IMG/VR virus record: IMGVR_UViG_3300033156_001040
Span: 1 to 48,322 of that record
Strand: one strand, 5' to 3'
DNA length: 48,322 nucleotides
Origin: a virus
In this document: one piece after another, positions 5,831 to 32,032 of the stretch
Position numbering within the stretch: the stretch's first letter is position 1
Layout of the letters: every line of letters begins with the position of its first letter
Made by a program: the position numbers and the translations under genes
Notes under the pieces: model-generated
Database searches by the model: none
The model's input: the letters and a program-made list of their open reading frames with translations, nothing else
Told to the model about the DNA's origin: nothing

Positions 5831-6143
5831 GGTAGCCCTCCCTCAGAAAGAAATCGTAAGCACCGCAAGCAAGGCTGAGGGTGTCAATGTCTCCATCATG
5901 CTGTCTGAGGTAAGCTGCGTTTTCCTTCATCCATTGTTTTACGTCTTGCCACTTGCAGGTGAAACCATGCCAATCGGCGAAGCGGCTGAGGCACTCGTAC
6001 CCCACGCAGATTAGCAACGCCCACCTGAAGGCGTCTGAGCCAGGGTCCTGCTCCGGCGCGTGGGACCTTGCCGCCTTCAGAACCCGAAAGGCGTCCTCAC
6101 TACCGAACCTCTCCACAAAGGATTTCCACAGTGGGCTCTTCAT
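5751..6143 (-). CDS. Hypothetical protein downstream of the DNA polymerase, 130 residues
   Basis: The start overlaps the polymerase stop (ATGA), so it is very probably translated from the same message. The sequence is helical with aromatic residues (ALLICVGYECLSRFADWHGF) and ends in a hydrophilic, acidic tail. A central LSLACGAYDFFLREGYREG segment recalls the small helical proteins at 8599 and 14604 in composition but not clearly in sequence. No enzyme motif is seen; a replication accessory role is a guess from position. Confidence 0.55.
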   Translation of the reverse strand: MKSPLWKSFVERFGSEDAFRVLKAARSHAPEQDPGSDAFRWALLICVGYECLSRFADWHGFTCKWQDVKQWMKENAAYLRQHDGDIDTLSLACGAYDFFLREGYREGQRNQREESDRDTDQIDNSGQEEV

Positions 6144-8602
6144 TCCATGTCCCCCCATCTCTTTCCTCGTTTTATGTCCACCGTCACGGGGACTTTTAAC
6201 TCTACCGCTCCTTCCATCACGGCCTTGATTTTCGGGGCCACTTTGTCCGCCAAGGCTTCGATGACCTCCCACATCAAATCGTCGTGAATCATGACCAGGG
6301 GTACCACGTGCTTTCTCTTGGCCCGCAAGCTCCGATAGTAAGGGACCAGCAGCCCCATCGCCGTTTTCATGATTCCGACAGCAGTTGATTGAATCGGCAT
6401 GTTCCCGGCATTCCGCAGGCCTTTCTCCACAATGTAGCCAAAGTACGACCGGACCTCGGGAATGAGCCGCCGCCGCCCAAACATGTCGGTCACGTAGCCG
6501 TGCCGCCATGCTTGCCTGTGGACGGCCTGCATAAAGTCCCGGACCCCAGGAAAGAAGTCCAGCCACGTGTCGATGAATTTCTGGGCCGTCTTCTCGTCCC
6601 AGCCGGTGTATTCGGCCAGCTTCTTGGCAGTGATGCCGTAAGCGATGCCGAAGTTGACTGCCTTGGCGGCTTGGCGCTGCTCCTTGGTCACCTCGTTGAC
6701 AGGTACACCAAAACAAAGGGCGGCGGTCTCCGTATGTAAGTCTTTCCCCTCCCGGAAGAAGGCTATCATTCTCCGGTCTCCGCTCATGTGGGCCAAGACC
6801 CGGAGCTCGATTTGCGAGTAGTCGAAGCTCAAAAACACGCAACCGGGCCGGGCCACGAAGACATTTCGGAGTGCCTTGGCGTCCGGTGAGTGGTGTGGGA
6901 CTGTCAGAAGCAGGCTGGCCGCCGGTCTCCCGGTAGCCGTCTTGACCATGTTTATCTGGTCTCGAACCACGCCGTCGTTGGCAGACATTTCCAAGATGCG
7001 TTCCAAGAATGACCCGCAGAGCTTGTCCAGTTCCCGATATCTCAGTATCTTCTCCACAATCGGGTGGTTCAGAGCCCCCAAAGCTTCTTTGCTGGTTGAC
7101 GGATTCCGGCTTTTCTTAGTCTTCTTGGGCGCCCGGAGCCCCAGTTTTTTGTAGAGGAGTTCCCCTACCTGGCTTTCGGAGCATGGGTTCACGTAGTAGC
7201 CTATATCGTCTTTTATGCTCTCCAGGATGGCATCTTGTTCCTGCCGGTAGGTGGCCATCAACCTCTTGGCGTAGTCACGGTCTACAAGGAAACCAGTCCG
7301 CTCCATGTCAGCTATCATCGGCAGGGCGGCCTGGTCGATTGTCAAGGCCTTGTGCTGACGGGACCACACGATTCTTTCCTTCAGAATCGGGAATATTCTG
7401 AATGTGGCGTCTGCATCTCGGGCGGCATATTCGACAGCGACTCCCTCATCTATGGCATCCAGCCCCGGTAATTTGACAGGCCACCTCTCCATTGGGTCCG
7501 GAACTTTGCCTTTTTCCAAGTCGGCCAGGAATTTCTTGGCCCGCCACGATTCGCTTCGAGGTTGCCTCCACCGGATTTGACCATCTTTGATTTCACGGAC
7601 CGGCGGCGGCTCGGGCAGATTTGCCTCGGCTACTTTCCGCGCGTCTTGAATTATTCGGTTCAACAGGGCGGGGGAGACCACCTCGTCGTATGTCTGCATC
7701 TTCATTCCGGCCAGCCGGAGAGCCAATGCCTTGAGGCCCCGAGGCAAATCCCCCAGGAGGTGAGCCATGAGCATGGTGTCGTACCACGCGGGAAGGGAAA
7801 AGCCTAGGGCCTCAAGGATTGGCAGGTCAAATTTGGCGTTGTGCAAGACGACGATTCGCTCCCGCACGTACCGTTTCAGTTCGCGTAGCGCCTGGTCGTC
7901 ACTAACTCGGATGACATTTCCCGTGCCGGGCGCTGTCGAATATTGGATGAACAGCGGATTGCCCTCAGAATCCAATTCCGTGTCAATGGCCACCACGGTG
8001 GCTTTTTTATCCAAAGGTAGCGGGCTTGTGACCAGCCGATACGTAGGCTCCGGGTATTTGTCAGCGAAGTCCTCCGGCCGCGATTTCGATTTAATGACGT
8101 CCGCTAAAGCCGTGAACCCTTGCATTATCTGGGTCATCATTCTGCCGTCGTGCAACCCCGCCGCCGGGTGGTAGCATGGCACTACCACGATGCTGCCCAC
8201 ACGGTGCGGAATGCCGTAGACCATCTCCATTCCCACCTCGCTACCTAGGAGGCAGCGGGTGGCAATGTGTCCCAGGGCGCCGATGACAGTACCGGGTGGG
8301 CATTTGCTCATCTCCGCCTGCAAATGGACAGAACAGGCGGCTATCTCGTCCGGCTTCGGGTCCCTGTTGCCAGGGGGTCGGCACTTTACGACGTTGGTTA
8401 TGTAGAAATCCTGCCGGGACAGGCCGACACGGGTCAAGTAGTTGTTCAACTCCAGACCAGCCTTGCCAACAAACGGTACCCCCTTGCGTTCTTCTTCTTC
8501 ACCCGGAGCTTCGCCTATCAGCCAAAACCTGCTTCGAGGGTCTCCGCTTCCAGGAACCGGCGTCGTCTTTCTGCCTAAAGCACACCTTTTGCAGTACATC
8601 AT
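6140..8602 (-). CDS. Uracil-DNA glycosylase / 3'-5' exonuclease / family A DNA polymerase fusion
   Basis: 820 residues, the phage replicase. Residues 1-175 are a family 4-type uracil-DNA glycosylase: Cys4, Cys7, Cys74 and Cys90 fit its iron-sulfur cluster, GEAPG (30-34) is the uracil-site motif, and YHPA (144-147) is motif 2. Residues 200-400 are a DnaQ-like proofreading exonuclease with DTE (207-209), NAKFD (255-259) and a final Asp396. Residues 430-820 are a Pol I-type polymerase: motif A with Asp593, motif B R643-K647-F651-Y655, motif C HDD (773-775). Phe651 at the position of E. coli Phe762 predicts strong ddNTP discrimination. ATG 8602 overlaps the upstream stop. Confidence 0.93.
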   Translation of the reverse strand: MMYCKRCALGRKTTPVPGSGDPRSRFWLIGEAPGEEEERKGVPFVGKAGLELNNYLTRVGLSRQDFYITNVVKCRPPGNRDPKPDEIAACSVHLQAEMSKCPPGTVIGALGHIATRCLLGSEVGMEMVYGIPHRVGSIVVVPCYHPAAGLHDGRMMTQIMQGFTALADVIKSKSRPEDFADKYPEPTYRLVTSPLPLDKKATVVAIDTELDSEGNPLFIQYSTAPGTGNVIRVSDDQALRELKRYVRERIVVLHNAKFDLPILEALGFSLPAWYDTMLMAHLLGDLPRGLKALALRLAGMKMQTYDEVVSPALLNRIIQDARKVAEANLPEPPPVREIKDGQIRWRQPRSESWRAKKFLADLEKGKVPDPMERWPVKLPGLDAIDEGVAVEYAARDADATFRIFPILKERIVWSRQHKALTIDQAALPMIADMERTGFLVDRDYAKRLMATYRQEQDAILESIKDDIGYYVNPCSESQVGELLYKKLGLRAPKKTKKSRNPSTSKEALGALNHPIVEKILRYRELDKLCGSFLERILEMSANDGVVRDQINMVKTATGRPAASLLLTVPHHSPDAKALRNVFVARPGCVFLSFDYSQIELRVLAHMSGDRRMIAFFREGKDLHTETAALCFGVPVNEVTKEQRQAAKAVNFGIAYGITAKKLAEYTGWDEKTAQKFIDTWLDFFPGVRDFMQAVHRQAWRHGYVTDMFGRRRLIPEVRSYFGYIVEKGLRNAGNMPIQSTAVGIMKTAMGLLVPYYRSLRAKRKHVVPLVMIHDDLMWEVIEALADKVAPKIKAVMEGAVELKVPVTVDIKRGKRWGDME

Positions 8603-12523: not shown

Positions 12524-13988
12524 AGACAGGAACCTCCTTAATAGATTTAATGAACCAGTGGGGTGCCAGGTATTTGCACCTCCACAGCAGGCGGAAGGCG
12601 TCGTCCGGTATGTAGGACTTACAGTAGTCCTGGGCACTTCGGACACCTCGCCCACACGCCTGGATTAGTTCTCTCCAAGCAATTTGGTAACGGAGTTCTG
12701 GGTTTTCGGCTTCCCTGGCCCTGAAAATCTCTCCCCGAAAGACCGGAAATGGCACCTTTGCAATGATTTGAAATCGACACTCGTCACCAGGGAAGTCGAG
12801 GCCGGTGTTTACGGCAGGGCTGATTAAGACCTTGGGCTCACTGGTATTCTTGAAGACAGCCACCGCTTGCGCTATCTCATGGGCACTGGCGGGGAAAATG
12901 AACCGCGCTTTGTACCTGCTGAGTCCCAGGATGGTCTCAGCCCTGCCGTAACTCACCGTATGGATTATTCCTTTCTCATGCGGGTGGGCTTCCAAGATAC
13001 GGTCAATAACGTTTAACCATAGCCGTTCCTTCCCAGGCGGAAGCCCATATCTCAAGGAAATACCGGTCCTCACCCAGTACACCGGGCGATTCTCCACAGG
13101 AAAGGGCGAATCAGCTTCCCAATACTCGAAGTTGGTTATGCCCAAGCTTTCAGCATGATGCGGAGTCAATGTGCCCGAGGTCAGGACGACGGTCTGCGTG
13201 CCCCTGAAAAGGAACGGTTCCACGAATGGCACAACTTTCTCCGGCCCGACTTTCCACCTCCTTCCTTTTTCCACCACGACTGGCCGGTGCAGCAGGCGAC
13301 CGACCAAATCCAACTCTTTCTTCACACGGGCCAATGCCGCCAACCGGCAAATATCATTTTCTTCCCGCACGACTTCCTTGAGCACAGTAGTGAGCCCCCG
13401 GTGCCAAGCCTCAATGTCATGGGGCGGTGTGACCCGTGTCCGTAAAGAGCGGGCGATTGACACAAAATCGAGGTCGGCTGTCAGGAAGGCGGCTAAATGG
13501 TCCAAAGCCTTGTGCGCTTCGTCCAGTACCAGGTTGTCGAACCGCCCCAGGAAGTCCCCCGAAGCCAGCCAATAAGCGTAGTTAGTCACCACCATCCTGG
13601 CCTTTCGTGCTGCTTCCACGGCGTCAAAATAGAAGCATCCCCCGTCACGAAGGACGCACTCCTTGCCAAAATGACACGGGCCTTGTTCACATGAAGGTGC
13701 CCCTAACAAGCAACGATAATTGGCCATACCCCTGACTTCCACCAAACCATGTGGTGAGAAGTCCGCGGCCAGTTGGTCTTGGAGCGCTTTCGTCGACGTC
13801 ACTATGACAGTTCTCCCGCCCCGGCCTATACAACCGGCGATATAGGCCAAGCTCTTGCCCACTCCGGTCGGCAAGCTCAACAAGAGAAAGCGCTCTTTTT
13901 GGTTCATGATTTTCTGGACAGCCTCCGCTTGCCCCGGCCTGAATTCCGCGTATTCAGCAAGCCCGAAGTCAGCCGGTCTTAGTTGCAT
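12504..13988 (-). CDS. DinG/XPD-type superfamily 2 helicase
   Basis: 494 residues. Walker A LPTGVGKS (39-46), the DEAH box (156-159), SGTLT (motif near the middle) and a C-terminal QACGRGVRS motif VI are all in place. Cysteines 93, 100, 105, 111 and 118 between Walker A and DEAH fit the iron-sulfur cluster of XPD/DinG. These enzymes unwind DNA or R-loops 5' to 3'. It is shorter than E. coli DinG, as phage versions often are. The first codons overlap the ThyX gene end by 20 bases. Confidence 0.88.
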   Translation of the reverse strand: MQLRPADFGLAEYAEFRPGQAEAVQKIMNQKERFLLLSLPTGVGKSLAYIAGCIGRGGRTVIVTSTKALQDQLAADFSPHGLVEVRGMANYRCLLGAPSCEQGPCHFGKECVLRDGGCFYFDAVEAARKARMVVTNYAYWLASGDFLGRFDNLVLDEAHKALDHLAAFLTADLDFVSIARSLRTRVTPPHDIEAWHRGLTTVLKEVVREENDICRLAALARVKKELDLVGRLLHRPVVVEKGRRWKVGPEKVVPFVEPFLFRGTQTVVLTSGTLTPHHAESLGITNFEYWEADSPFPVENRPVYWVRTGISLRYGLPPGKERLWLNVIDRILEAHPHEKGIIHTVSYGRAETILGLSRYKARFIFPASAHEIAQAVAVFKNTSEPKVLISPAVNTGLDFPGDECRFQIIAKVPFPVFRGEIFRAREAENPELRYQIAWRELIQACGRGVRSAQDYCKSYIPDDAFRLLWRCKYLAPHWFIKSIKEVPVYGVAES

Positions 13989-14634
13989 CGCACGACGCCT
14001 CCCCTATGTCATCGAACAAGACAGGGGTCTTTTCTTTCAGGAGAGCCAGGACTTTGAGCATCAAATCCCTCATTTGTGGGTGAGCCGCCGCCGAAGTACG
14101 GAGCTTAAGGATATGCCGCCACTCCCGCATATTGGCCGTGACTACAATCCTGGTAGCAAGGGAATTAGGCAGAACCGCTCTCGCTTGCTCCGCCCGCCAT
14201 CCGTGCTTGAGTAGGCGGTGGTAAAGCTCTTCGGCGAGGAGCATGGCCACGGCCCAGCATCTCTCTGTCTCAGGTAACTCCAAAAGCTCCGAAGAGTCAG
14301 TCGAGTACCGGCCAGGTCGCAGTACCTCGCACCAGACCGGTAGGACAAACTCTATTTCCCCCCGATACGTGCAGTACCGGGTTGATTCTTGGGAGTAGGA
14401 AGCGAGCCGGTGCCTGACTAACTCGTGGGTAACGCCCCGGTCCGTGGTCAAGGCGATGGTTGCGACAGCGTGTTCAATGACTGACTCGTGGCCTTTCTCC
14501 ACAAGCCGTCTCACGAAGTCAGCCGCCTTTCCCCTCGGTTCGCTCCGGTAGCAGGTCCTTCCAGCCATTTCGATAAGCCGGAGCGGGTGCGGCGTGACGC
14601 TCACTATTTCTGCTGTTTGGCGTACGATATCCAT
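13969..14634 (-). CDS. thyX: FAD-dependent thymidylate synthase
   Basis: 221 residues. The ThyX signature RHR-x7-S is at residues 74-84 (RHRLASYSQES), followed by TRY. The flanking ESVIEHAVATIAL and the late NMREWRHILKLRTSAAAHPQMR match the FAD- and dUMP-binding regions. It converts dUMP to dTMP using methylenetetrahydrofolate and NADPH, with FAD carrying hydride. With the dCMP deaminase of the same operon it forms a dCMP to dUMP to dTMP route. The start overlaps the upstream gene by 31 bases. Confidence 0.95.
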   Translation of the reverse strand: MDIVRQTAEIVSVTPHPLRLIEMAGRTCYRSEPRGKAADFVRRLVEKGHESVIEHAVATIALTTDRGVTHELVRHRLASYSQESTRYCTYRGEIEFVLPVWCEVLRPGRYSTDSSELLELPETERCWAVAMLLAEELYHRLLKHGWRAEQARAVLPNSLATRIVVTANMREWRHILKLRTSAAAHPQMRDLMLKVLALLKEKTPVLFDDIGEASCDATKTG

Positions 14635-15096: not shown

Positions 15097-15273
15097 TTCA
15101 GTGGCAGGCGCGTGGCAAGCGGCTAAAGAGAGAACCCACTCGATTCCGTCTCTAAATCCCTCGGCGTATCTCTCGTCAACCCAGTCTGTGACCGGTAACC
15201 CGAACAAGTTATTCTCCACCCGAACGCGAACCTTCCCCGTCTCGTGTGTTTCCAGCCGTGTCCATAAACGCAT
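15052..15273 (-). CDS. Small protein whose C-terminus is encoded by the attP core
   Basis: 73 residues starting MRLWTRLETHETGKVRVRV; ATG 15273 has GGAGGG six to seven bases upstream, inside the integrase gene (65-base overlap). The centre (VDERYAEGFRDGIEWVLSLA) looks like a genuine helical protein. The last 15 or so residues (RAHQDSNLGPADS) are the antisense translation of the tRNA-Arg 3' half, and the stop lies in the anticodon-loop triplet. After integration the tail would be supplied by whichever att copy is adjacent. A directionality factor role is possible from location only. Confidence 0.55.
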   Translation of the reverse strand: MRLWTRLETHETGKVRVRVENNLFGLPVTDWVDERYAEGFRDGIEWVLSLAACHAPATEWRAHQDSNLGPADS

Positions 15274-16240
15274 CGATTCCCTCCAGAGCGGTCCGTACTT
15301 CCTGGCCAATCAGAGAGAGATAACGGTCTGTCGTCGTCGCCCTCTCATGGCCTAAGACCTGCTGTATCACTGGCAGGGGCGTCCCTCGCTCCGCCAACGC
15401 CGAGGCGGCGTTGTGCCGAAGGTGGTGGTAAGTGAACTTCCCCCCGGACAGCCGCTTTATGAGTTTCCATCGATAACCGTAACGAGTCCCCGTTCTCGGG
15501 TTGGTGAAGACCCAAGGGCTCCCCGGTTGCCTGTGTTTCCAAGCGTATTCCAGCGCCCGCCTGACGCTGGTAGTCATGGGAATTTCCCGAGGCGTCAAGA
15601 CACCGCCCCGCTTTTTCCTGGTCCAAAGCGTAACACAATTACGCTGAAAGTCAACATCCTGCCAAGTAAGGCGGGACACCTCGCCGACTCTTGCACCTGT
15701 TTGCCATATCACGGTCAGAAAAGAGCGCTCCATCGGCGGGGCTTTAAGAATGGTTTGCGCAACCTCGCCCGTCGTAGGGACTACTTTCTTGGTCAACTGG
15801 ACCGGGAGAGGTTTGACAGACTTGGCCGGGTTCTTGTCCAAAAACCCATCAGCAACGGCCATATTGAACAGGGCTTTGACAGCCCTCAGATGGCGGTTGA
15901 CGTTATGGGGTGTAGTTTGCTTTGCGAGCTCAAGGATACGGTCTTTGACCATTTGGGGGGTGATTTCTGTCAAGAGCAGGTCGCCCCAGGACGCGAACGC
16001 CCTCAAAAGGGCTTTGGTGTCGCGATAGTGGGTGTGGGTGCAGTAGGCTGCTACATGCTCAATCCGGCGGCCTACCATTTGTCTGAACGTCACGCCGCCG
16101 AGGCCCGCCCGCCGCCTGGCCTCGATTTCGGCCTTGGCGGCTTCTTCGTAAGTAGCGAAGCCGCCCTTGGAATACCGTTTCCCTTGGTGGGAAAACCGGT
16201 ATTCGAACCTTTTGGTGTCCCTGCGCCGGTAGACGCTCAT
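15209..16240 (-). CDS. int: Tyrosine site-specific integrase
   Basis: 343 residues. The N-terminus is an AP2-like arm-binding region (YRFSHQGKRYSKGGFATYEEA), followed by a core-binding SAM-like domain (about 50-150) and the catalytic domain. Catalytic residues visible are Arg184 (GARVGEVSRL), His272 and Arg275 (HHLRH), His298 (LGHE) and the nucleophile Tyr307 (TDRY). It recombines attP with attB; the attP core is 110 bases beyond its stop. ATG 16240 overlaps the repressor stop (ATGA), so repressor and integrase are co-expressed from the 16504 promoter. Confidence 0.96.
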   Translation of the reverse strand: MSVYRRRDTKRFEYRFSHQGKRYSKGGFATYEEAAKAEIEARRRAGLGGVTFRQMVGRRIEHVAAYCTHTHYRDTKALLRAFASWGDLLLTEITPQMVKDRILELAKQTTPHNVNRHLRAVKALFNMAVADGFLDKNPAKSVKPLPVQLTKKVVPTTGEVAQTILKAPPMERSFLTVIWQTGARVGEVSRLTWQDVDFQRNCVTLWTRKKRGGVLTPREIPMTTSVRRALEYAWKHRQPGSPWVFTNPRTGTRYGYRWKLIKRLSGGKFTYHHLRHNAASALAERGTPLPVIQQVLGHERATTTDRYLSLIGQEVRTALEGIDAFMDTAGNTRDGEGSRSGGE

Positions 16241-16926: not shown

Positions 16927-17060
16927 TTCTGGCCCTCCCCCCGCCTTTGGGGGGGGTGCCCGCCCGCCCAACCCCGCTTGTATATATCAGGCTAATCTAT
17001 ACCCCGCCGGTAGGGAAACAAGGTGCCCCAAAGCCGCACGGTTGACGCATGGAAAAGAGG

Positions 17061-17089
17061 TTGACAATGAGGAAACCCTGCCCCATAAT
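17061..17089 (+). promoter_or_regulatory. Promoter of the MoxR/VWA cassette, TTGACA-17-CATAAT
   Basis: -35 TTGACA at 17061-17066 and -10 CATAAT at 17084-17089, 17 bases apart, 27 bases before the MoxR ATG. No operator-like motif shared with the switch is visible here, so the cassette may be expressed in the lysogen. Confidence 0.75.
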
Positions 17090-17116
17090 AGAGGAAAACT
17101 CCTAGGAGGTGAGCCG

Positions 17117-18058
17117 ATGAAACCCAAAGAGTTACAAGAAACCCTGCGCAAACTGTGGCTAGGTGGCAACCGCCAGGCAATACTGGTGGTGGGGCCTCCC
17201 GGTATTGGAAAGACCGAGATTGTCCGCCAAGTGGCGGACAGCCTAGGCTTTTCCTTCTCCGTCAGCCATCCCGTGGTGGCTGACCCGACTGATTACAAGG
17301 GTTTGCCCGCCCTCGTAGGGGAGCGGGAGGCAGATTTTCTGCCATATGGCCCGCTCCTGGAATTGGTGAAAGCTGACAGACCACACATTCATTTGGTAGA
17401 CGACCTGGGGCAGGCGCTCCCCAGCGTGCAGGCCGCGCTAATGCAGTTAGTGCTGGCGCGGCGTGTTGGGGAGCACCAAGTCTCCCCGCATGTGCGGTTT
17501 GCCCTGGCAACTAACCGGCGCGAAGACCGCGCCGGAGTAAATGTGTTGCTGGCTCCACTATTGAACCGCTGTATCGTAGTGGAGCTCCAGCCCTCGGTCC
17601 GCGACTGGTTAAAGTGGGCCGAGCAAGTGGGGGTTCACCGCACGATTATCCATTTCGTGGAAATATTCCCTCGCCACTTGACCGAGCCAAACGGTAAGGA
17701 ATTAGAGGCGGGGAACACTCCGCGTTCAATCGCCGCGCTGGACAGCGTTTACCGGCTGTTCCGGCGGCATAGCTTACTGATTGAACTTGTCCGAGGAACC
17801 ACGACTACCGCGGTAAGCCAAGACTTCAAATGGTTCCTCGAGCACCGCGGCGAGCTCCCCCGCCTGAGTGATATGGTCTCCCGACCCGAAAGCGCACGAG
17901 TCCCCGAAAACCCAGCGGCGCGCACCGCCCTGGCCCGCGCCGTGGTGGCGCACGCGCGGGAAACGGATGAGGGTGAGGCGCGGCGGTTGCGGAAATATGT
18001 CGAAAGACTAGGTCCCGAAGCCGCGGCTATGTACGACGCCGAGCGGCGCTACCGTTAA
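17117..18058 (+). CDS. MoxR-type AAA+ ATPase
   Basis: 313 residues. Walker A GPPGIGKT (26-33), Walker B-like IHLVDDLGQA (91-100), and ALATNRREDRAGV as sensor 1 with LLNRCIVVEL after it are the usual MoxR/RavA-type order. Such ATPases act as chaperones that remodel or load a partner, typically a von Willebrand A protein, which is exactly what the next gene encodes. The C-terminal 100 residues are helical and Arg-rich. ATG 17117 follows GGAGGT; an upstream frame start at 17042 lies in the promoter and is rejected. Codon choice (many GCG and CGC) looks richer in G/C third positions than the structural genes. Confidence 0.88.
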   Translation: MKPKELQETLRKLWLGGNRQAILVVGPPGIGKTEIVRQVADSLGFSFSVSHPVVADPTDYKGLPALVGEREADFLPYGPLLELVKADRPHIHLVDDLGQALPSVQAALMQLVLARRVGEHQVSPHVRFALATNRREDRAGVNVLLAPLLNRCIVVELQPSVRDWLKWAEQVGVHRTIIHFVEIFPRHLTEPNGKELEAGNTPRSIAALDSVYRLFRRHSLLIELVRGTTTTAVSQDFKWFLEHRGELPRLSDMVSRPESARVPENPAARTALARAVVAHARETDEGEARRLRKYVERLGPEAAAMYDAERRYR

Positions 18059-18074
18059 AAGGGAGGGGAAAATA

Positions 18075-19226
18075 ATGGGGAAAAAGACCCAGGAAGATAA
18101 GGAAGCCCGGAAAGCAATCAAGGGGGTTTACGGTTGCTTGTTTAGCGCCGCTAGGAGGCTCCCCTTACTGTTGTCGTATTTAGGACGCATACCCATCCGC
18201 CTAATGCCCAATGAGTACGGGCCGTTGGCCGCCGTAGACGGCCAGTGCCTGTATATAAATCAACCCCGCTGGGAGTCGCTAGAGCGGAAGCACAAAGAAA
18301 CGGTAGTGGCTCACGAAGCCCTTCACTTGATACTAGCACACATACAGCGGCGCGGGAATCGCCAGCCGCGGCGCTGGAACTACGCTTGTGACGCGGTTAT
18401 AAACAGAATCCTGATAAACGCGGGGTTTTCCCTGCCTTATCCATGTGTTCCCCCGGCAAGCGCCGAGGTATCAGCCGAGGAATATTACGAGCGCCTCAAG
18501 TGTGAAGATGACAGGCTTGTCCCTATTCCCGCGGTGGTGACGGACATAGCCGACTTACACGAGGCAGGTATCGCCGAAGAGGTGGAAGCGGAAGAAGGCG
18601 GTGACGACCGCGGAACCGGCCGTGGTGTAGCCACACCCTTGCAAGGCGCGGAGCACGAAGCCGAACTACTCGGCATCGCGGCCACGACCCTGCTCACTCG
18701 CGCTTTGCCTGGTCTGCGGCGCGCCATTGCCGCCTTTGCCGGTAAATGTGACTATGGGTGGCAAAAACCGCGGCAGTACGGACAAATAATCTTGCCAACT
18801 GTGGAGCCCCGCCGCCCCAGGGTGGTCATTGCCCTGGACGCTTCGGGGAGCGTGCGGGAGGTTTGGTTACGCTCCTACTGCCACACGGCAGGGGAGATTG
18901 CTCAAGCCGCCGGTTGTAATGTGGACCTAGTGTTCTTTGACTGGGACGTCAGAACCGCGGTCATGGACGCGACGCCGCCCTTCGGCAGGTACGCGGTCTA
19001 TCCTGGCGGTGGCACCAATTACCGCGCCGCTTTCAATTGGGTGCAGGAGAACCGCCCTGGCGAGGCGGTTCTGCTTGTCTACTTCACCGACGGGAGGTGC
19101 CCCGACAGGATATGCGAGACTGAGCTGATAAACCTGGTATGGGTAATCCATCCGCGGCCGCTGGGTGCGCACCTTTATCATTATGGCCCGTGGAACCGTT
19201 GTGAAGGCGAGGTGATATTTTGTTAG
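18075..19226 (+). CDS. VWA-like protein with N-terminal HExxH metallopeptidase-like domain (DUF2201 type)
   Basis: 383 residues. An N-terminal metallopeptidase-like domain has AHEALHLILAH (HEALH at 80-84) and WNYACDAVIN (101-110), the pattern of DUF2201_N. A low-complexity acidic linker (about 165-195) leads to a VWA-like domain with the metal-ion-dependent adhesion motif DASGS (255-259) and GGGTNY (311-316). MoxR and such proteins occur as a pair in many bacteria with unknown targets. The start has GGGAGGGGA upstream and a 16-base gap after the ATPase. A tiny membrane peptide overlaps its end. Confidence 0.85.
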   Translation: MGKKTQEDKEARKAIKGVYGCLFSAARRLPLLLSYLGRIPIRLMPNEYGPLAAVDGQCLYINQPRWESLERKHKETVVAHEALHLILAHIQRRGNRQPRRWNYACDAVINRILINAGFSLPYPCVPPASAEVSAEEYYERLKCEDDRLVPIPAVVTDIADLHEAGIAEEVEAEEGGDDRGTGRGVATPLQGAEHEAELLGIAATTLLTRALPGLRRAIAAFAGKCDYGWQKPRQYGQIILPTVEPRRPRVVIALDASGSVREVWLRSYCHTAGEIAQAAGCNVDLVFFDWDVRTAVMDATPPFGRYAVYPGGGTNYRAAFNWVQENRPGEAVLLVYFTDGRCPDRICETELINLVWVIHPRPLGAHLYHYGPWNRCEGEVIFC

Positions 19227-20029: not shown

Positions 20030-20349
20030 AGGTTTGCGGGACGTGTGGCCAGCGGTACGTGAACTTCTGCGTGGCCTGTGCCAAGCGGTCACGTGAGGAG
20101 AAGGTCGATGCCCTCATGGAGCGGGTCGGCCTGACCGAGGAAGCCCTGGTTGCCAAGCTGGCCGAGCTTGTGGAGGCTGGTCACTTCGGCGCGCTGAGCC
20201 TGGCTATCTCCCTGCGTGGAATGCGGCCAGCCACCAAGACCGAAGTCCAAGTAGGAGGACAAGCGCTTGAGGACCTCAAGGAGGCCCGGAAGCGCCTTGC
20301 TGAGAAAATTGAAAGACTTGTCGGCCACCGAGTCGCGAAAGTTGATTAG
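20017..20349 (+). CDS. Zinc-ribbon protein, candidate terminase small subunit
   Basis: 110 residues. An N-terminal CGTCGQRYVNFCVAC ribbon (8-22) is followed by helices; LVAKLAELVEAGHFGALSLAISLRGMRPATKTEVQVG resembles the end of small terminases, in which a repeated K/A-L-x-LG segment precedes a beta strand. It overlaps the large terminase start by 83 bases. The evidence is position plus loose pattern, so the small-terminase call is tentative. Confidence 0.5.
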   Translation: MADLKVCGTCGQRYVNFCVACAKRSREEKVDALMERVGLTEEALVAKLAELVEAGHFGALSLAISLRGMRPATKTEVQVGGQALEDLKEARKRLAEKIERLVGHRVAKVD

Positions 20350-21013
20350 CGGCCTGGGCGTGGCCGAGCTCAAGGCGTTCCTGGGTGAGTTGGATGAGGC
20401 TTACAAGCGAGATTTCTGGGCCTGGTTGATAAACGAGGTTTACACCCAGGACGAGGCGACTCAGAGCAAGCGGCCCTGGCCGGACAAAGCATATCTCCGG
20501 GACGTCGCTTGGCTTTTGCAGAATGAGCAGCTTCTCTTGCTTCCCAAGAGTCGCCGGATGATGATTTCCTGGATTTTGGCGGCTTACTGTGTGTGGAAGG
20601 CCCGGTATTTCCCTCACAACGCCGTCTTCATCCAGTCCGAGACCGAGCAAAAGTCCGCGTTCATCGTGGACAAGCGTTGCGTCTTCATTGAGGAGAACCT
20701 GGCCGAGCCGTTGCTCAGGCGCCCGTTCCGGTCGATTCGGACTCATCAGGGCTCTATTGGCCGCATCACTTACGAAGACACCGGTTCGTACATTTGGGCC
20801 ATTCCCCAGGGGGAGGACGTCATCCGGACTTACACTTTCTCTGTCCTGTTTATGGACGAGTGTGAGTTCCAAGCTGAAGGGGCTCGTGCCTTGGCGTCAG
20901 CTTTGGCCATCGCCGAGAAGAAGGCTCAGATAATCCTGGTTTCCACCAGCAACGGGCCGACCGGGCCAATGGCCGAAATCTGTCGAGCTTCAGGTTTTCA
21001 CAAGTTCCAGTGA
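20267..21013 (+). CDS. Terminase large subunit, ATPase half
   Basis: 248 residues containing the packaging motor ATPase: Walker A-like LPKSRRMMISW (92-102), Walker B VLFMDECE (193-200) and the coupling motif STSNGPTGP (226-234). The start is a TTG with AGGAGG at eight bases, the best ribosome site in the region. The frame ends in TGA just after motif III where a normal TerL continues into its nuclease. The nuclease half follows in another frame from about 21033. It is either a frameshifted gene or a genuine two-polypeptide motor. Confidence 0.8.
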   Translation: MRTSRRPGSALLRKLKDLSATESRKLISGLGVAELKAFLGELDEAYKRDFWAWLINEVYTQDEATQSKRPWPDKAYLRDVAWLLQNEQLLLLPKSRRMMISWILAAYCVWKARYFPHNAVFIQSETEQKSAFIVDKRCVFIEENLAEPLLRRPFRSIRTHQGSIGRITYEDTGSYIWAIPQGEDVIRTYTFSVLFMDECEFQAEGARALASALAIAEKKAQIILVSTSNGPTGPMAEICRASGFHKFQ

Positions 21014-21032
21014 CTATGAATGACACATTGCT

Positions 21033-22001
21033 TTGGTGGCTCAGTCAACCACCGGTCGTCGGTCATCCGTACCTCTTTCATTTCATCGTGCTAATCGCTT
21101 GTATTTGGCTATGTCGGCTGATGCGCAGACCGGAAAGAAAAGACCGTTGAAAATCCTGGAGGTCATCGAGTCGCCGACCGGCTTTGTTATCGCTCCGGTT
21201 CACTACTCGATGGACCCGGAGAAGGATGGTGCTTGGCTTGAGCGGGAAATCGCCAAGTATCGGCGGGACAACGTCGAGTGGCTCAAGACCTGGGCGCGGG
21301 AGATGGAAATTGATTTCACTGCCGTCTCCGGGGCGCCCGCATTCCCCAACTTCTCCGAGAAAAATTTGGCCAAGGAGCTTCCTTACAATCCTTCCCTTCC
21401 TCTTTGTCTGTGCTGCGATTTCAACGTTGAGCCGATGGTCTGGCTCGTGGCCCAAGTTGTCAATGATAAGGTTTTGGTTCTGGACGAAATCGTCATGAGT
21501 CCGGGGACTGTCGAGGAAATGGTCCGGGAGTTCCGGAATCGCTATCCGGCTCATCCTGCCGATATCTGGGTTTACGGCGACGCGACGGGCCGGGCCAGGA
21601 CCGCCCAGACGGCCCGTTCGTGCTACGATATTCTCCGCCTGGCGTTCCGTGGTTACCCGGTTCCGCTCCGCCTGAAGGTTCCTCTCGCCAACCCTTCCAT
21701 CCGGGACTCCCTGAACGCCGTAAATCTCAAGCTCATGAGTCCGGATGGCGACGTTTCTCTCTACATTGACCAGGATAAGTGCCCCGAACTCATCAAAGAT
21801 ATGAAGGAAGTCGTCACTAAAGCTGACGGCACCAAAATTGTCAAAGTTGACAAGCGGGAAGACCCGTATTTCTGGCGTACCCACGCCGCTGACGCTCTCC
21901 GGTACTTCATTGCCAGGGAATGGCCGACTGTCCACAAGGTTTATTTGCGTCGGCAGCGGGTTCGTCCCCGTCTTTATTCCCGCTTGTTGGGGGAGATGTG
22001 A
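21033..22001 (+). CDS. Terminase large subunit, RNase H-like nuclease half
   Basis: The C-terminal part of TerL: GFVIAPVHYSMDPEKDG is the usual linker to the nuclease, LCCDFNVEP supplies the first acidic residue, DIWVYGDATGRA the second, and the terminal HAADALRYF the third. The start is unclear: TTG 21033 or ATG 21111, neither with a good ribosome site. It is in a different frame from the ATPase half and separated by 20 bases. Headful nucleases of this type cut concatemers during packaging. Confidence 0.8.
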   Translation: MVAQSTTGRRSSVPLSFHRANRLYLAMSADAQTGKKRPLKILEVIESPTGFVIAPVHYSMDPEKDGAWLEREIAKYRRDNVEWLKTWAREMEIDFTAVSGAPAFPNFSEKNLAKELPYNPSLPLCLCCDFNVEPMVWLVAQVVNDKVLVLDEIVMSPGTVEEMVREFRNRYPAHPADIWVYGDATGRARTAQTARSCYDILRLAFRGYPVPLRLKVPLANPSIRDSLNAVNLKLMSPDGDVSLYIDQDKCPELIKDMKEVVTKADGTKIVKVDKREDPYFWRTHAADALRYFIAREWPTVHKVYLRRQRVRPRLYSRLLGEM

Positions 22002-24837: not shown

Positions 24838-25152
24838 ATGGAAGAGTGCTTAAGTTGCGGACGCAGCGACCGTCCCCTTTTCCCTCTTCCTTCTTCCCTT
24901 AATCCTTCCCTCAAAGCTTGCATCGTTTGCCTCCAAGAATACGGTGAGGAAGTTCTGGCCAGGGAAGCAGACCGCCTCCTGGCGGCTGGAATCCCCCTGG
25001 ATAATAAACCCCGTTGCCTTCTTTGCAAAAGCCCGGTGGTGGTTAAGCCGGATGGAAAAGTTCCTCTTTACTGCCGTTCCTGTCTTGACAGCCTATGGCG
25101 GGAATTGAAGAGCGTCTACAATATGGTACCGCTCTCCACGCCGAGGTCCTGA
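24838..25152 (+). CDS. Zinc-ribbon protein preceding the portal, 104 residues
   Basis: Several CxxC pairs: CLSC (4-7), CIVC (about 28-31), CLLC (about 60-63) and CRSC (about 79-82), making two C4 clusters joined by a helix (EYGEEVLAREADRLLAAG). AGGAGG precedes the ATG. The end overlaps the portal gene by 58 bases. Function unknown; zinc ribbons here may bind nucleic acid during packaging. Confidence 0.55.
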   Translation: MEECLSCGRSDRPLFPLPSSLNPSLKACIVCLQEYGEEVLAREADRLLAAGIPLDNKPRCLLCKSPVVVKPDGKVPLYCRSCLDSLWRELKSVYNMVPLSTPRS

Positions 25153-27044
25153 ATCGCATTAACGCCCGTCTTAATCTTTCCTACGACAAGATTTCCCAAC
25201 GTTTCTCCGATTGGGACCGAGTGGACCGGCAGGTCAGGATGTACCTCGACTTGACCGAGGGTGCCATTCGCGGGGACCGGACTACGCTCTACGGGCCGGA
25301 CGGTACTCCGGTCCGGGAGATGCCGTTTGAGCGGTCTATCGTCATCCCAGTCTCCTATGCGGTTCTCAACGTCCGCTTGGCTCAGTACATGTCCATCCTC
25401 CAGGGCCGTAAACCGCTCTGGAGTCTGGAAGGCCGAGGCCCGGAAGACGTCCGCCCTTCCCGGCTCATGGAAGCGGTTCTGGATTACGACATGGAGCAAT
25501 GTCGGGCGTTGCTGGCTATCTACTCGGCTTTGCAGGACGCCGAGAAGTACGGCATTGGTGTCATTTACGACGTCTGGACCGAGGAGTACGGTTGGAAGAC
25601 GAATCCCCGTCTGAACAACCCCTTGGCTCGCCAGTTGGCTCGAATCGCCGGTCTTCCCTCGAACTTATGGCGGGTTTGGGGTGTAACTAAAGAATACAAC
25701 TCCTGGACGTCCATCGACCCTTATCTGTTCCGCCCCGACCCTCGCGTTCCCAAGACCGCTGTCCAGGAAGGTGAATTCGTAGGGCACCGCACCTTTGTCA
25801 GCTACCTTTACTTGCTGGAACGGTCGGTTGAGAACGGTGGCATTTACTTCAACGTCGGCGTCTTACCGCGTTTCCGGGGTGAGACCACGCAGGAATACAT
25901 TCCGAAGCGCGACACCATCTTGACTGCTGGTCCCGATTACCGGGCCACGGTGGACCCCGACGACAAGGGATATTTTGCTGTCGACCACATTCAAATCCGC
26001 CTCATCCCCAAGGAGTGGAAACTGGGCGACGGCACCACTCCTGAAGTCTGGTGGTTCTCCGTCGTCAACAAGGCCGTAATTGTTCGGGCGCACCGGAGTT
26101 CCTATGAGCACGGCCAGTTCACCTACGCCGTGGGCGAGTCTAACTTCGACCCTCACAGCCTGGACAACATGGGCAATATCGAGTCTCTGGCCGGGCTCCA
26201 GCGTTTTATTAACTGGATGCTCAACAGCCACTTTGAGAATATCCGCAAGACGCTGAATGACGTCCTGATTTACGGCGCCTCGTTCGTCGAGGAAACCGAT
26301 ATTGTGAACCCCGGCCCCGCCCGGCACATTCGCCTGACTCAGCGTGGTGAGGAACTGGTCGAACTTGGGATGCCTATCACCCATTTTGTCTCGCAATTGC
26401 CCGTAGTCGATATTACTGCCCCCCACTTGCAGGCTAGCCAGTTCCTCTGGGAAATGGTTCAGCGGATGATGGCCACGTCGGACCCGCAAATGGGCCACCC
26501 CACCCAGAAGAAGAAGACTTTGGGGGAAATCCAGCAGGTCATTTCCGGGGCCTCCATGCGGTTGTCCGTGGCGTTCCGCCTCTATGAAGAGATGCTCTTC
26601 CTTCCTTTGGTTCGGCGGGCAATAGCGAATCGGCAGCAGTTTACTACTTTGGAGCAGTACTACCGCATCACCGGCGAGGCTATTAAGGAATTCGCCGGTG
26701 CTACCCGTGAGCTTATTACTGTTTCTGATTTGCAGGGTAATTTTGACTATTCCCCTCGCTCCGAGGTTCTTCCGCCTGACCCGGCGAAGGCGGCAATGGC
26801 CTGGACTCAGTTCATGCTGGCTATTTCCAAAGCGCCCCAGGTGTTCCTGGCCCCCGGCCCGGACGGGAAACGCCTCGACCCTCGGACTATCATCAACGAG
26901 ATGGCTCGTGCCCTAGGCATCAAGAACGTCAGTCAGCTTTACGTCCAGGATAACATGCCGGTTCCGCCGGTGCGGGTAGTGCCGGACGAGGAAGTTGAAA
27001 AGCAAGTTCAGCGTGGCAACATGGTACCAGTGGTGCAGCAATGA
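25095..27044 (+). CDS. Portal protein
   Basis: 649 residues, the size of P22/SU10-type portals. The order (helical N-terminus with RFSDWDRVDRQVRMYLDLTEG, stem segment RLAQYMSILQGRKPLW, a central ENIRKTLNDVL, and QKKKTLGEIQQVISGASMRLSVAFRLYEEM tunnel-loop/stem region) and the location between terminase and scaffold support the call. The portal ring is the DNA entry and exit channel of the head. ATG 25095 overlaps the upstream gene. Confidence 0.82.
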   Translation: MAGIEERLQYGTALHAEVLNRINARLNLSYDKISQRFSDWDRVDRQVRMYLDLTEGAIRGDRTTLYGPDGTPVREMPFERSIVIPVSYAVLNVRLAQYMSILQGRKPLWSLEGRGPEDVRPSRLMEAVLDYDMEQCRALLAIYSALQDAEKYGIGVIYDVWTEEYGWKTNPRLNNPLARQLARIAGLPSNLWRVWGVTKEYNSWTSIDPYLFRPDPRVPKTAVQEGEFVGHRTFVSYLYLLERSVENGGIYFNVGVLPRFRGETTQEYIPKRDTILTAGPDYRATVDPDDKGYFAVDHIQIRLIPKEWKLGDGTTPEVWWFSVVNKAVIVRAHRSSYEHGQFTYAVGESNFDPHSLDNMGNIESLAGLQRFINWMLNSHFENIRKTLNDVLIYGASFVEETDIVNPGPARHIRLTQRGEELVELGMPITHFVSQLPVVDITAPHLQASQFLWEMVQRMMATSDPQMGHPTQKKKTLGEIQQVISGASMRLSVAFRLYEEMLFLPLVRRAIANRQQFTTLEQYYRITGEAIKEFAGATRELITVSDLQGNFDYSPRSEVLPPDPAKAAMAWTQFMLAISKAPQVFLAPGPDGKRLDPRTIINEMARALGIKNVSQLYVQDNMPVPPVRVVPDEEVEKQVQRGNMVPVVQQ

Positions 27045-28307: not shown

Positions 28308-30774
28308 ATGGCCGCGATTCAGGGTATGCGCGGCACCGGTTCGTGGGGAGCCGACCCCCGTCCTAAGTCTTACCGGGAGACCATTCTTTACTTGTACCCT
28401 CACGGGAAATCCGTGTTGGTTCCCATGACTTCGAAGCTGCGGGAAGAGTCCGTCGACGACCCTGAATTGATTCGGGGCCTCACCTGGTAACAGGTGAGTG
28501 AAAACGGTGCTGTATGCGGGGACACCCTAAAGCCGTTGCCGACCACCAGAGTAAAACTGGCACGGATGCAACAATGGGCAATCCGCAGGTAACCGAGCGT
28601 GAACTCGTTTGGCTGGCCTGCTTCATAGATTGTGAGGGCAGCATCCAGCTTGTAAAAACGCACGGCAGTAAGAGCGCAGTTGCTCTTCATGCTCGAGTTC
28701 AAATGCCGTCAACCGACAGCGGCCTGGTTTACGAGTGTTACCGAATCTTGAACAAGCTCGGCGTAAACCCGTACATTCATCAGCATGTGTCGAAAAGCAA
28801 GAACGCTGCCGCAAGAGGTGCATACACTTTGTATTTTCAGCGGTTCGGCCAAATCAAACGGGTTCTTGAGGCAATCTTGCCTTACCTGGTTTCGAAAGCC
28901 GGACAGGCCAGGTTGATGCTTGACTACATTAACCGCCGTACTGACGGCGGCAAGCATAGCGGCAAGCGCAAACCCATTACTGAGGAAGACCTGAAGTACT
29001 GGGAACAAATGAAACGCCTCAACGCTCGTGGAACCCCAGAGACTATACGCACCGCACCCATAGACAGTGGGTGATGATATAGTCCGGCCCCATGCGAAAG
29101 TATGGGAGAAAGCTGGAATTCAAAGTTTTCATCAAGGGTCTTCCCACTCAGCGCGTCCTTGTTGGCGCCAACTACGATAACACCACTGACCCTATCACCA
29201 TTACCTTGAAGACCGCCGGTGATTACACCTACTTCAAGGCCGGTCACGTGGTGATGAACGAGCGGACCCTTGAGGTTATGTGGGTCACTTCCGTCGACAC
29301 CTCTAACAACAAAATTACCTGCAAGCGGAACGTGGGAACCAGCAAGGCTGCCGGTCAGGCTGACGACGGTCTAATCATCATCGGTTCCGCCCACGAAGAA
29401 GGTGCCGATACTCCGACCGAAATCACCTACGACCCCACGGTCGTTACGAATTACACTCAATTTGGGTGCGCCGCCTGGTAACAGGTGGATGAAAACGCGG
29501 CTATATGCTGGGAACGCCTAAAGCTGAGGGCTACTGCCAAGGTAACAATGCCCCGGATGCAACAATGGCCAATCAGCAGGAAAGACTTGCCTTTGTAGCT
29601 GGCTTGATAACCGGGGAAGGCTGGTTTGGTCTTACTTGTCAGAAGTCGGTAAAGCAGTTGAAGACCAAAAACGGCTTCACCATTTACCCCCGGTTCTGCC
29701 TGCAAATGAACGACATGGAAACGATGGAAAGCGTCGCTGGGCTCTTCAACGAACTGGGCCTCTCCTATCATGTCTCTCACACCAAAGGGGGAATGAGGAT
29801 AGAGGCCGTCGGCATGAAGAGGGTGAAAAGGATAGCTTCCACCTTTTCACCATACCTTCAAGGCAATAAGAAGGCGGCGGCGCGGATAATCCTTGAGTAT
29901 ATCGCCCTGCGGGAATCCAAGCCTCAAAATGCCCCGTACGGCGATGAGGAATTTCGGCTGGTCAATCTACTCAGAAACGTCGTGAATGCAGGCAATGGGA
30001 AAAGGCAAGTATCCTCAGAGACTATACGCCGCGCCCCTGTCGAGGAAGCGAACAGGGTGAAGATATAGTCCATGCCCGTTCCGAAAGGGCGGGGGTCACA
30101 TGCAAATCTTCCGTAACGCCGTGGCTATGACCCGGACCGCTATGAAGACCCGGCTGCGGACCGGTGACCAGGTCCGGCAGGCCCAGAAAGAAGCTCTTCT
30201 CCTGCATACCATCGAGATGGAGAAAGCGTTTATTTTCGGGGCTGGCAAGGAGGACCTGACTGGTTCTCAGCCGAAGCGGACCACGAAGGGCGTTGTGAAT
30301 TTCATTTCCAGCAACGTTTTCGATTACAACGGCGGTGTGGACATTGACACCTGGGAGAACAACCTGGAAGACGTTTTCCGGTATGGCAACTCCCAGAAGT
30401 TCCTCATCTGCGGTGCTCGGGTTATCAACTGCATCAATAAGCTGGCCCGGATTCATTCCAAGGTCCAGCTTGTGCCGCGGGACGAGACTTACGGCCTGCG
30501 GGTGTGGAGCTATGTCACGCCGTTTGGCGAGCTTATCTTGAAGGTCCACCCGCTGTTCTCTGAGAACCCCACTTTCAACAAGTGGGGAATCATCTTGGAC
30601 CTGGACCAGTTGGTTTACCGGTACCTGCGTGATTCCGACACCAAGTACCTGCGCAACCGGCAGGGTCCGGGCATCGACGGCTTCAAGGACGAGTACCTCA
30701 CTGAGGCTGGCCTTGAGTGCCGTTTCGAGCAGACTCACGCAATCATCAAGAACATGGACACCGTGATTGCGTAG
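28308..30774 (+). CDS. Major capsid protein, three exons split by two group I introns
   Basis: Exons are 28308-28463, 29116-29457 and 30103-30774. Joined they give one 389-residue frame. Exon 1 ends ...EESVDDP and exon 2 starts EFKVFIKGLPTQR, restoring the VDDPEF...LPxxR block of SU10-type capsid proteins (DUF5309 family). Exon 2 ends ...VVTNYT and exon 3 starts QIFRNAVAMTRTAMK, restoring the NYTQIFR block. Without splicing the frame would stop at codon 61. ATG 28308 follows GGGAGG. Each exon ends in U and each intron in G, as group I splicing requires. The product forms the head shell. Confidence 0.88.
28464..29115 (+). ncRNA. Group I intron 1 in the capsid gene
   Basis: 652 bases. The guide sequence AUUC-GGGG (28470-28477) pairs GGGG with exon 1 CCCU (U-G at the splice) and AUUC with exon 2 GAAU (P1 and P10). 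P2 is an eight-base stem with a GUAA loop (28479-28498). P7 is GACUAUA (29041-29047) with UAUAGUC (29078-29084); P8 CACCC/GGGUG lies between. A P9-like hairpin follows. The endonuclease gene occupies the loop between the P/Q and R elements. Confidence 0.88.
28574..29074 (+). CDS. LAGLIDADG homing endonuclease of intron 1 (I-CreI type)
   Basis: 166 residues from ATG 28574. One LAGLIDADG motif (LACFIDCEGSI) near the N-terminus and a later ILPYLVSKAGQARLMLDYI helix are the arrangement of single-motif enzymes such as I-CreI, which cut as dimers. It would cut intronless capsid alleles near the exon 1/2 junction. The frame begins in the Q element and runs through R, P7 5' and P8, so ribozyme folding and translation compete. 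An upstream frame start at 28514 lies in P2-P3 and is less likely. Confidence 0.83.
   Translation: MGNPQVTERELVWLACFIDCEGSIQLVKTHGSKSAVALHARVQMPSTDSGLVYECYRILNKLGVNPYIHQHVSKSKNAAARGAYTLYFQRFGQIKRVLEAILPYLVSKAGQARLMLDYINRRTDGGKHSGKRKPITEEDLKYWEQMKRLNARGTPETIRTAPIDSG
29458..30102 (+). ncRNA. Group I intron 2 in the capsid gene
   Basis: 645 bases. Guide AUUUG-GGUG (29460-29468) pairs GGUG with exon 2 CACU (U-G at the splice) and AUUUG with exon 3 CAAAU (P1 and P10). P2 is CCGCCUG/CAGGUGG with GUAA loop (29471-29488). P7 is GACUAUA (30020-30026) with UAUAGUC (30064-30070); P8 is CCCUGU/ACAGGG. The 5' domain closely resembles intron 1, so the two are sister elements in one gene. Confidence 0.88.
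29565..30068 (+). CDS. LAGLIDADG homing endonuclease of intron 2
   Basis: 167 residues from ATG 29565. The single motif reads FVAGLITGEGWFGL; the later IASTFSPYLQGNKKAAARIILEYI matches the I-CreI-type second helix. It is only distantly similar to the intron 1 enzyme apart from these blocks, suggesting different target sites. The stop codon lies inside the 3' strand of P7 (S element). Predicted to promote homing into intronless capsid genes at the exon 2/3 junction. Confidence 0.83.
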   Translation: MANQQERLAFVAGLITGEGWFGLTCQKSVKQLKTKNGFTIYPRFCLQMNDMETMESVAGLFNELGLSYHVSHTKGGMRIEAVGMKRVKRIASTFSPYLQGNKKAAARIILEYIALRESKPQNAPYGDEEFRLVNLLRNVVNAGNGKRQVSSETIRRAPVEEANRVKI

Positions 30775-31149: not shown

Positions 31150-31406
31150 TGAAGGAGTATGTTTGCAGCCGTTTCCCATTCCTGAAGATTGGAAGTGGCC
31201 CGGACCAGGCACGCTTTGAGAATGGCCGTCTCATTACCGGCAACCCCAAGACCATCGAGTTCGTGGAGAACTCCGACTGGTTCGGTGTGTACATTTTCGA
31301 GGTAGGCGGTGAAGGCGTGGTGGTCGATTACTACGCTGAACCCGAACCCGAAATTGGAAACGCCGAAGTTCTCAAAATCGTCGAGGAGTCTGGCATCGGG
31401 AAATGA
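31149..31406 (+). CDS. Hypothetical head-region protein, 85 residues
   Basis: A beta-rich start (MKEYVCSRFPFLKIG, RFENGRLITGNPKTIEFVENSDWFG) and an acidic helical tail (EPEPEIGNAEVLKIVEESG). TGATG overlap with the preceding gene and ATGA overlap with the adaptor gene show tight coupling. Similar short proteins with an NGxxxTxxxxxxExxxxxxW pattern occur near phage capsids; role unknown. Confidence 0.55.
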   Translation: MKEYVCSRFPFLKIGSGPDQARFENGRLITGNPKTIEFVENSDWFGVYIFEVGGEGVVVDYYAEPEPEIGNAEVLKIVEESGIGK

Positions 31407-32032
31407 ACTTCGGGGAATTCAAGGCGCTAGTGCGGTCCTGGCTGAATCAGGATACAAGCACGCTCCCGGACAATGTTCTGGATTCCGTGGTCAACATTTG
31501 CCGCCGTGAGATTCTTCGCAAATGTGACCTGCGTTACGGTGAGGCATCCGCCACTGTCCAGACGTCGGCGGGAACGACTGATTACTCCCTGCCCACCGGT
31601 TGGAGCCGTCCTCATACTGTCTGGTACCTGACTTCTGAGGGTGCTTTCCGACCGGTGTACTATCTCACCAAGGAAGAGTTTGACCGTCGCTTCCCCGACC
31701 CAACTGGAAACCCCGGAGCTCCTGGCTATTACACTGTCTGGGGCGGCCAGGTCTCATTCGGGCCTACTCCAGACAGCGTTTACAATATCAAGTTCACTTA
31801 CTACCGTTTCTTGCCGGACCTCTCCGGTGATTCCGACACGGACGACCTGCTGGACACTGCTTGGGAGGCCCTGCTTTTTTACTGCCTGTGGTATCTGTGT
31901 TTCTACTTCTTCAATGACAATCGGGCTGACCGTTTCCGCCAGTTGGCCCTCGAGCATGTGGGCGACCTTGGTCGGGAGTACCGGCGTTCCGCCTCGGCGG
32001 CTCGCAGGCCTGTCTCTCGCGAGGTAACCTAG
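31403..32032 (+). CDS. Head-tail adaptor protein
   Basis: 209 residues. The N-terminal helical FGEFKALVRSWLNQDTSTLPDNVLDSVVNICRREI and the following TTDYSLPTGWSRPHTVWY beta part, then YYRFLPDLSGDSDTDDLLDTAWEALLFYCLWYLC, are the usual plan of podovirus and SU10-type adaptors that bind under the portal. The C-terminal Arg-rich tail is also typical. Position after the capsid genes agrees. Confidence 0.7.
   Translation: MNFGEFKALVRSWLNQDTSTLPDNVLDSVVNICRREILRKCDLRYGEASATVQTSAGTTDYSLPTGWSRPHTVWYLTSEGAFRPVYYLTKEEFDRRFPDPTGNPGAPGYYTVWGGQVSFGPTPDSVYNIKFTYYRFLPDLSGDSDTDDLLDTAWEALLFYCLWYLCFYFFNDNRADRFRQLALEHVGDLGREYRRSASAARRPVSREVT

Follow-up and report, generated by a model that had tools for sequence, protein, structure and literature searches.

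The viral record IMGVR_UViG_3300033156_001040 was analysed over its full 48,322 bp (hereafter the window), and it is apparently that of a phage. Positions 28308-30774 almost certainly contain the only major capsid gene of an SU10-like phage, broken into three exons by two mobile group I introns (Table 1). With both introns removed, the three exons, each of whole codons, join into one stop-free frame of 389 codons, the product of which matches SU10_MCP over residues 40-384 (PF17236; Pfam, E 1.7e-39) and the major head protein phrog_1328 (PHROG, E 5e-41). This is the only major capsid gene in the window, and its neighbours are an SU10-type portal (25095-27044, 1.3e-8) and an SU10 adaptor (31403-32032, 4.6e-29), which places it in a head-gene cluster. 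An earlier note on this DNA, made from the letters alone, had given the splice junctions as 28463/29116 and 29457/30103 and had proposed a comparison of the spliced 389-residue protein with SU10-type capsids; the coordinates proved exact, and the comparison gave the SU10_MCP match above. In-frame ATG codons are found near the intron ends (29092-29094 and 30100-30102), and exons 2 and 3 resemble separate genes to a gene caller. Indeed, exon 3 read on its own from the ATG at 30100 is an ORF of 224 codons that still matches SU10_MCP at 1e-30, so the expectation of the note that a simple gene caller would find no capsid gene has to be replaced by that of a truncated capsid call.

Table 1. Features of the interrupted capsid gene, in positions of the window.
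Feature	Position	Strand	Remarks
Capsid exon 1	28308-28463	+	52 codons, ends in VDDP; homologues continuous over the junction
Group I intron 1	28464-29115	+	652 nt; RF00028 E 8.7e-9
Intron 1 P1	28460-28477	+	exon CCCU/GGGG, U-G pair at the 5′ splice site
Intron 1 P10	28470-28473 (AUUC) with 29116-29119 (GAAU)	+	4 bp
Intron 1 P2 hairpin	28479-28498	+	8 bp, GUAA loop; its UAA is an in-frame stop if unspliced
Intron 1 core	28505-29106	+	P3-P9, covariation
Intron 1 P3	28505-28510/29049-29054	+	
Intron 1 P4	28515-28520/28582-28587	+	
Intron 1 P6a	28594-28599/29023-29028	+	
Intron 1 P7	29041-29047/29078-29084	+	
Intron 1 P8	29055-29059/29069-29073	+	
Intron 1 P9	29089-29095/29100-29106	+	
HEG1, LAGLIDADG homing endonuclease gene (intron 1)	28574-29074	+	166 codons; PF14528 4.7e-5
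Capsid exon 2	29116-29457	+	114 codons, EFKV to NYT
Group I intron 2	29458-30102	+	645 nt; RF00028 E 8e-4
Intron 2 P1	29454-29468	+	exon CACU/GGUG, with U-G pair
Intron 2 P10	29460-29464 (AUUUG) with 30103-30107 (CAAAU)	+	5 bp
Intron 2 P2 hairpin	29473-29486	+	5 bp, GUAA loop with in-frame stop
Intron 2 core	29496-30093	+	P3-P9, covariation
Intron 2 P3	29496-29501/30028-30033	+	
Intron 2 P4	29506-29511/29573-29578	+	
Intron 2 P6 and P6a	29578-29591/30004-30015	+	
Intron 2 P7	30020-30026/30064-30070	+	
Intron 2 P8	30035-30040/30052-30057	+	
Intron 2 P9	30075-30078/30090-30093	+	
HEG2, LAGLIDADG homing endonuclease gene (intron 2)	29565-30068	+	167 codons; PF00961 5.8e-5
Capsid exon 3	30103-30774	+	223 codons and stop, begins QIFRN; alone SU10_MCP 1e-30

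Several other genes of the window can be named. These include a family A DNA polymerase with a fused N-terminal domain of the uracil-DNA glycosylase superfamily (6140-8602, 8e-28), a ThyX thymidylate synthase (13969-14634, 5e-51), an AAA ATPase followed by a DUF2201 metallopeptidase/VWA-like protein, in the manner of a MoxR-VWA pair (17042-19226), and a tyrosine integrase (15209-16240, 3.5e-24), the last of which suggests a temperate phage. The large terminase (20267-22001) is encoded by a pair of ORFs that do not share a frame; one gives the ATPase half (phrog_2, 3e-8), the other the nuclease half (phrog_10250, 5.6e-15). A third intron was considered here and rejected, since four relatives (L134, L135, L136 and L140) likewise have a divided terminase, the gap between its parts ranging from a few bases to 4.5 kb, and by this comparison it looks like a true two-gene terminase.

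The joined gene is also supported by uninterrupted homologues. With the joined protein as query, 80 loci were retrieved from viral contigs; the majority encode the capsid in one piece, and in dozens of contigs the same protein runs uninterrupted through both junction motifs (SVDDPEFKVF and NYTQIFRN), with no extra alignment columns at either junction. The closest uninterrupted relative is 62% identical over residues 3-388. When 379 ten-residue segments of the protein are ordered by conservation, the NYT/QIF junction has rank 3, within the most conserved stretch, and the moderately conserved DDP/EF junction rank 140. A structural model of the relative L001, 62% identical to the capsid of the window, has a mean pLDDT of 81 and matches the solved capsids of Vibrio phage VP1 and SU10 (9in6, E 2e-34; SU10 7z45, 2e-11). 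The product is therefore predicted, by profile and by the fold modelled for this relative, to be an SU10-type major capsid protein with the HK97 fold.

At both introns the last base of the exon is U, paired to G in P1, and the last base of the intron is G, as is the rule for group I introns. When the two cut points were slid jointly by up to 12 nt in either direction, intron 2 had no alternative U/G solution and intron 1 had a single one (at -10), with neither P1 nor homologues in its support. The helices P1 (with its U-G pair) and P10 and the P2 hairpin with its GUAA loop, all of which had been claimed in the earlier note together with the terminal bases, were confirmed base by base in both introns; a point against is that each P1 has only four pairs. 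In-frame stops occur within 10 codons past each 5′ junction. Skipping from exon 1 to exon 3 would keep the frame, but the P10 strand of intron 1 does not pair with exon 3, and this variant was rejected.

Further inside, P3, P4, P5, P6, P7, P8 and P9 are present in both introns, P7 and P8 having been named in the earlier note as well. The introns have the conserved P3-P4-P5-P6-P7-P8 core and P3/P7 pseudoknot by which group I is recognized. A covariance-model search, proposed in the note as a check, gave no Rfam match at the gathering threshold; a relaxed search with RF00028 matched both introns at 42.2 and 25.7 bits, scores that lie below the gathering score of 50 bits, a curated cut-off by convention and not a property of ribozymes, with intron 2 aligned only in part. 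The low scores are probably due to the insertion of an ORF of about 500 nt in each intron. For the initial 137 nt of intron 1, phage records gave no match.

Further evidence for the core comes from an alignment of both introns with those of L014, L085, L089 and L090, from which the endonuclease ORFs were cut out. RNAalifold, with no structure supplied, recovered P3, P4, P5, P6, P8 and P9 (not P7), with compensatory changes in 23 of 39 pairs. Once P7 was added, 92% of the cells of the six introns pair and both partners are changed in 24 of 46 pairs, counts that come from cores cut and assembled by the analyst and from a structure for which this alignment was itself in part the source, a circumstance in that structure's favour. 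None of 500 shuffles reached 24 two-sided changes, and slid structures drop to 34-48% pairing. P3 and P7 are fully (100%) paired in the six introns, and five of the six pairs of P3 change on both sides. For these cores, chosen and trimmed by the analyst, the comparison is strong evidence that the RNA structure has been under selection. Together with the uninterrupted homologues and the covariance model, the compensatory changes support the central claim of the note, namely that two group I introns divide the capsid gene.

The P6 loop of each intron also contains a LAGLIDADG homing endonuclease gene, which the earlier note did not mention. The Pfam cut-offs are barely passed (PF14528, 24.0 against 22.5; PF00961, 24.4 against 23.1), and single-endonuclease queries found no relatives in viral contigs or in 50,697 phage records, so that profiles were required. 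Both ORFs start in the P5/P4 strand and stop in or near P8/P7 (HEG1 at the end of P8, with a start conserved among its relatives), and the two ends of both proteins (M-x-N-x-Q and ETIRxAP) are therefore encoded by the ribozyme core; the endonuclease relatives have similar ends. In the motif expected to hold the catalytic acidic residue, HEG1 has FIDCEG and HEG2 has LITGEG, and its E-G pair is invariant in 13 relatives. In HEG2 a T takes the place of the usual D, which makes the activity of this enzyme less sure. The idea that one intron arose recently as a duplicate of the other was rejected, since the two endonucleases are only 23-27% identical; moreover, HEG1 groups with the endonuclease of L014 (91% SH-aLRT), and HEG2 does not.

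From these structures and from what is established for the family, a course of events can be proposed. Each intron would fold within the transcript, P1 and P10 holding the exons while the P3-P9 core acts as catalyst; guanosine would attack after the exon-terminal U, and ligation of exons 1, 2 and 3 would yield the message for a 389-residue protein of HK97 fold. In unspliced RNA the UAA in the GUAA loop of P2 would end translation ahead of the core. The endonucleases, in turn, would cleave those capsid genes of related phages that lack an intron, by which the introns would spread. Because the window has a single capsid gene copy and in-frame stops just inside each intron, virion assembly may be expected to depend on splicing.

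One could instead suppose that one or both introns have decayed and lost splicing, and that the pieces of the capsid assemble as separate proteins or the phage is defective. The in-frame ATG codons upstream of exons 2 and 3 would allow separate pieces, for which there is a precedent in the split NrdA of phage Aeh1 (PMC7344957). Yet the splice sites, P1, P10 and core pairs are all intact, the core is maintained by compensatory change, and pieces parted within so conserved a stretch as that of the intron 2 junction would hardly fold, all of which makes decay very improbable. That the interruptions are inteins (in which LAGLIDADG endonucleases are also frequent) or assembly errors can practically be discounted, as the stops close to each 5′ junction and the length of intron 1, not a multiple of three, exclude inteins, a frame reading through with intein splicing motifs is absent here, and insertions of the same kind occur in the same gene on independent contigs.

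Group I introns in phage capsid genes, including several in one gene, are already published. In the mycobacteriophage LittleE the major capsid gene is interrupted by what is probably a group I intron, which has a LAGLIDADG ORF and the splicing of which was proven by RT-PCR and N-terminal protein sequencing (PMC3706429); this resembles the window, from which it differs in having one intron, an endonuclease on the opposite strand and a different capsid. Delta-group crAss-like phages have group I introns in their MCP genes, and in one Zeta-group phage the MCP is in five fragments (PMC7886860). They share with the window the presence of group I introns in capsid genes, whereas some of them have recoded stops and the window has an SU10-type capsid, the standard code and exact splice sites. 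As cited in PMC3706429, the lactococcal phage Tuc2009 also has an intron in a capsid subunit gene. The introns of Twort ribonucleotide reductase and of T4 td, nrdB and nrdD, as cited in PMC8541194 and PMC3706429, likewise belong to group I and lie in genes essential to the phage, one Twort gene having two, although the host genes given there are other ones.

Closer parallels exist among the viral contigs. L014 (IMGVR_UViG_3300005568_000001) has a related intron of its own in an SU10-type capsid gene, inserted a few codons downstream of the site of intron 1, while the SU10-type capsid gene of L172 (IMGVR_UViG_3300009285_009257) has an intron at the exact NYT/QIF site of intron 2, although the endonuclease there is another one. 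Multiple insertions with endonucleases are seen repeatedly in capsid genes, and the SU10-type capsid genes of L172 (2001-5621) and L186 (2003-6380) have three or more of them each. In L100, L104, L106 and L110 the endonuclease ORF is antisense to the adjoining phrog_371-type capsid gene, as in LittleE.

A wider set of relatives was sought by the ribozyme core motif or by endonuclease profile, host genes playing no part in the search; the host genes were then assigned by PHROG matches and by a panel of the capsid exons so recognized. Two of the query alignments (A1 and A4) had been built from capsid-resident endonucleases. After clustering at 80% identity, with the two endonucleases of the window left out, 58 of 79 viral endonuclease clusters adjoin or interrupt a major capsid gene, four adjoin or interrupt another gene and 17 have no assignment. 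The capsid genes fall into seven groupings (SU10-type, HK97-type, P22-like, and PHROGs 1357, 9953/14242, 334 and 371). A P7 motif of the intron lies 3′ of the ORF in 24 of the 58 clusters, against none of 107 background windows, and so shows an intron for under half of them. On a quick tree with few firm branches, at least 19 changes of capsid grouping were counted (minimum 6, shuffled mean 37). The same core motif, without a LAGLIDADG ORF, was found at three further loci, beside a portal gene (L084), a terminase gene (L088) and an unassigned gene (L083).

This distribution suggests that a lineage of intron endonucleases is found chiefly in capsid genes, a pattern of which the literature compared here describes no example. 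It is quite possible, if short of probable, that a lineage of LAGLIDADG group I introns has settled on phage major capsid genes, moving between capsid families without detectable sequence similarity and often re-entering one gene, the window being a two-intron example with introns acquired separately. The enrichment might, on the other hand, be a sampling effect, given that capsid genes are conserved and easily recognized and that the queries were themselves capsid residents; we regard this as less likely than not, though a possibility of real weight. The origin of A1 and A4 and the 17 unassigned clusters speak for it, as do bacterial and archaeal genomes searched with the same profile, where the neighbours are mostly other genes (none of 15 loci matches the panel; three look like capsid genes, by eye only). 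Against it, the loci were retrieved without regard to their host gene, a phage has several dozen genes of which the capsid gene is one, and the relatives are spread over capsid groupings with no match to each other; in addition, a control scan with the HNH endonuclease of L084, whose intron has the same core motif, gave no match to the panel at any of 12 loci, in what is a small control with a panel that misses some capsid families.

A phage that has to splice its capsid message twice would be a strict test of the efficiency of ribozyme splicing, given that hundreds of copies of this protein are required. Truncated capsid calls in such genomes also harm capsid-based classification of phages. 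Finally, should it be true that the clade favours capsid genes across unrelated families, the question is why, and the reason may be (i) the conservation of the target, (ii) its level of expression or (iii) harm to co-infecting phages, an effect reported for an intron endonuclease of PhiPA3 in one account (PMC11620839).
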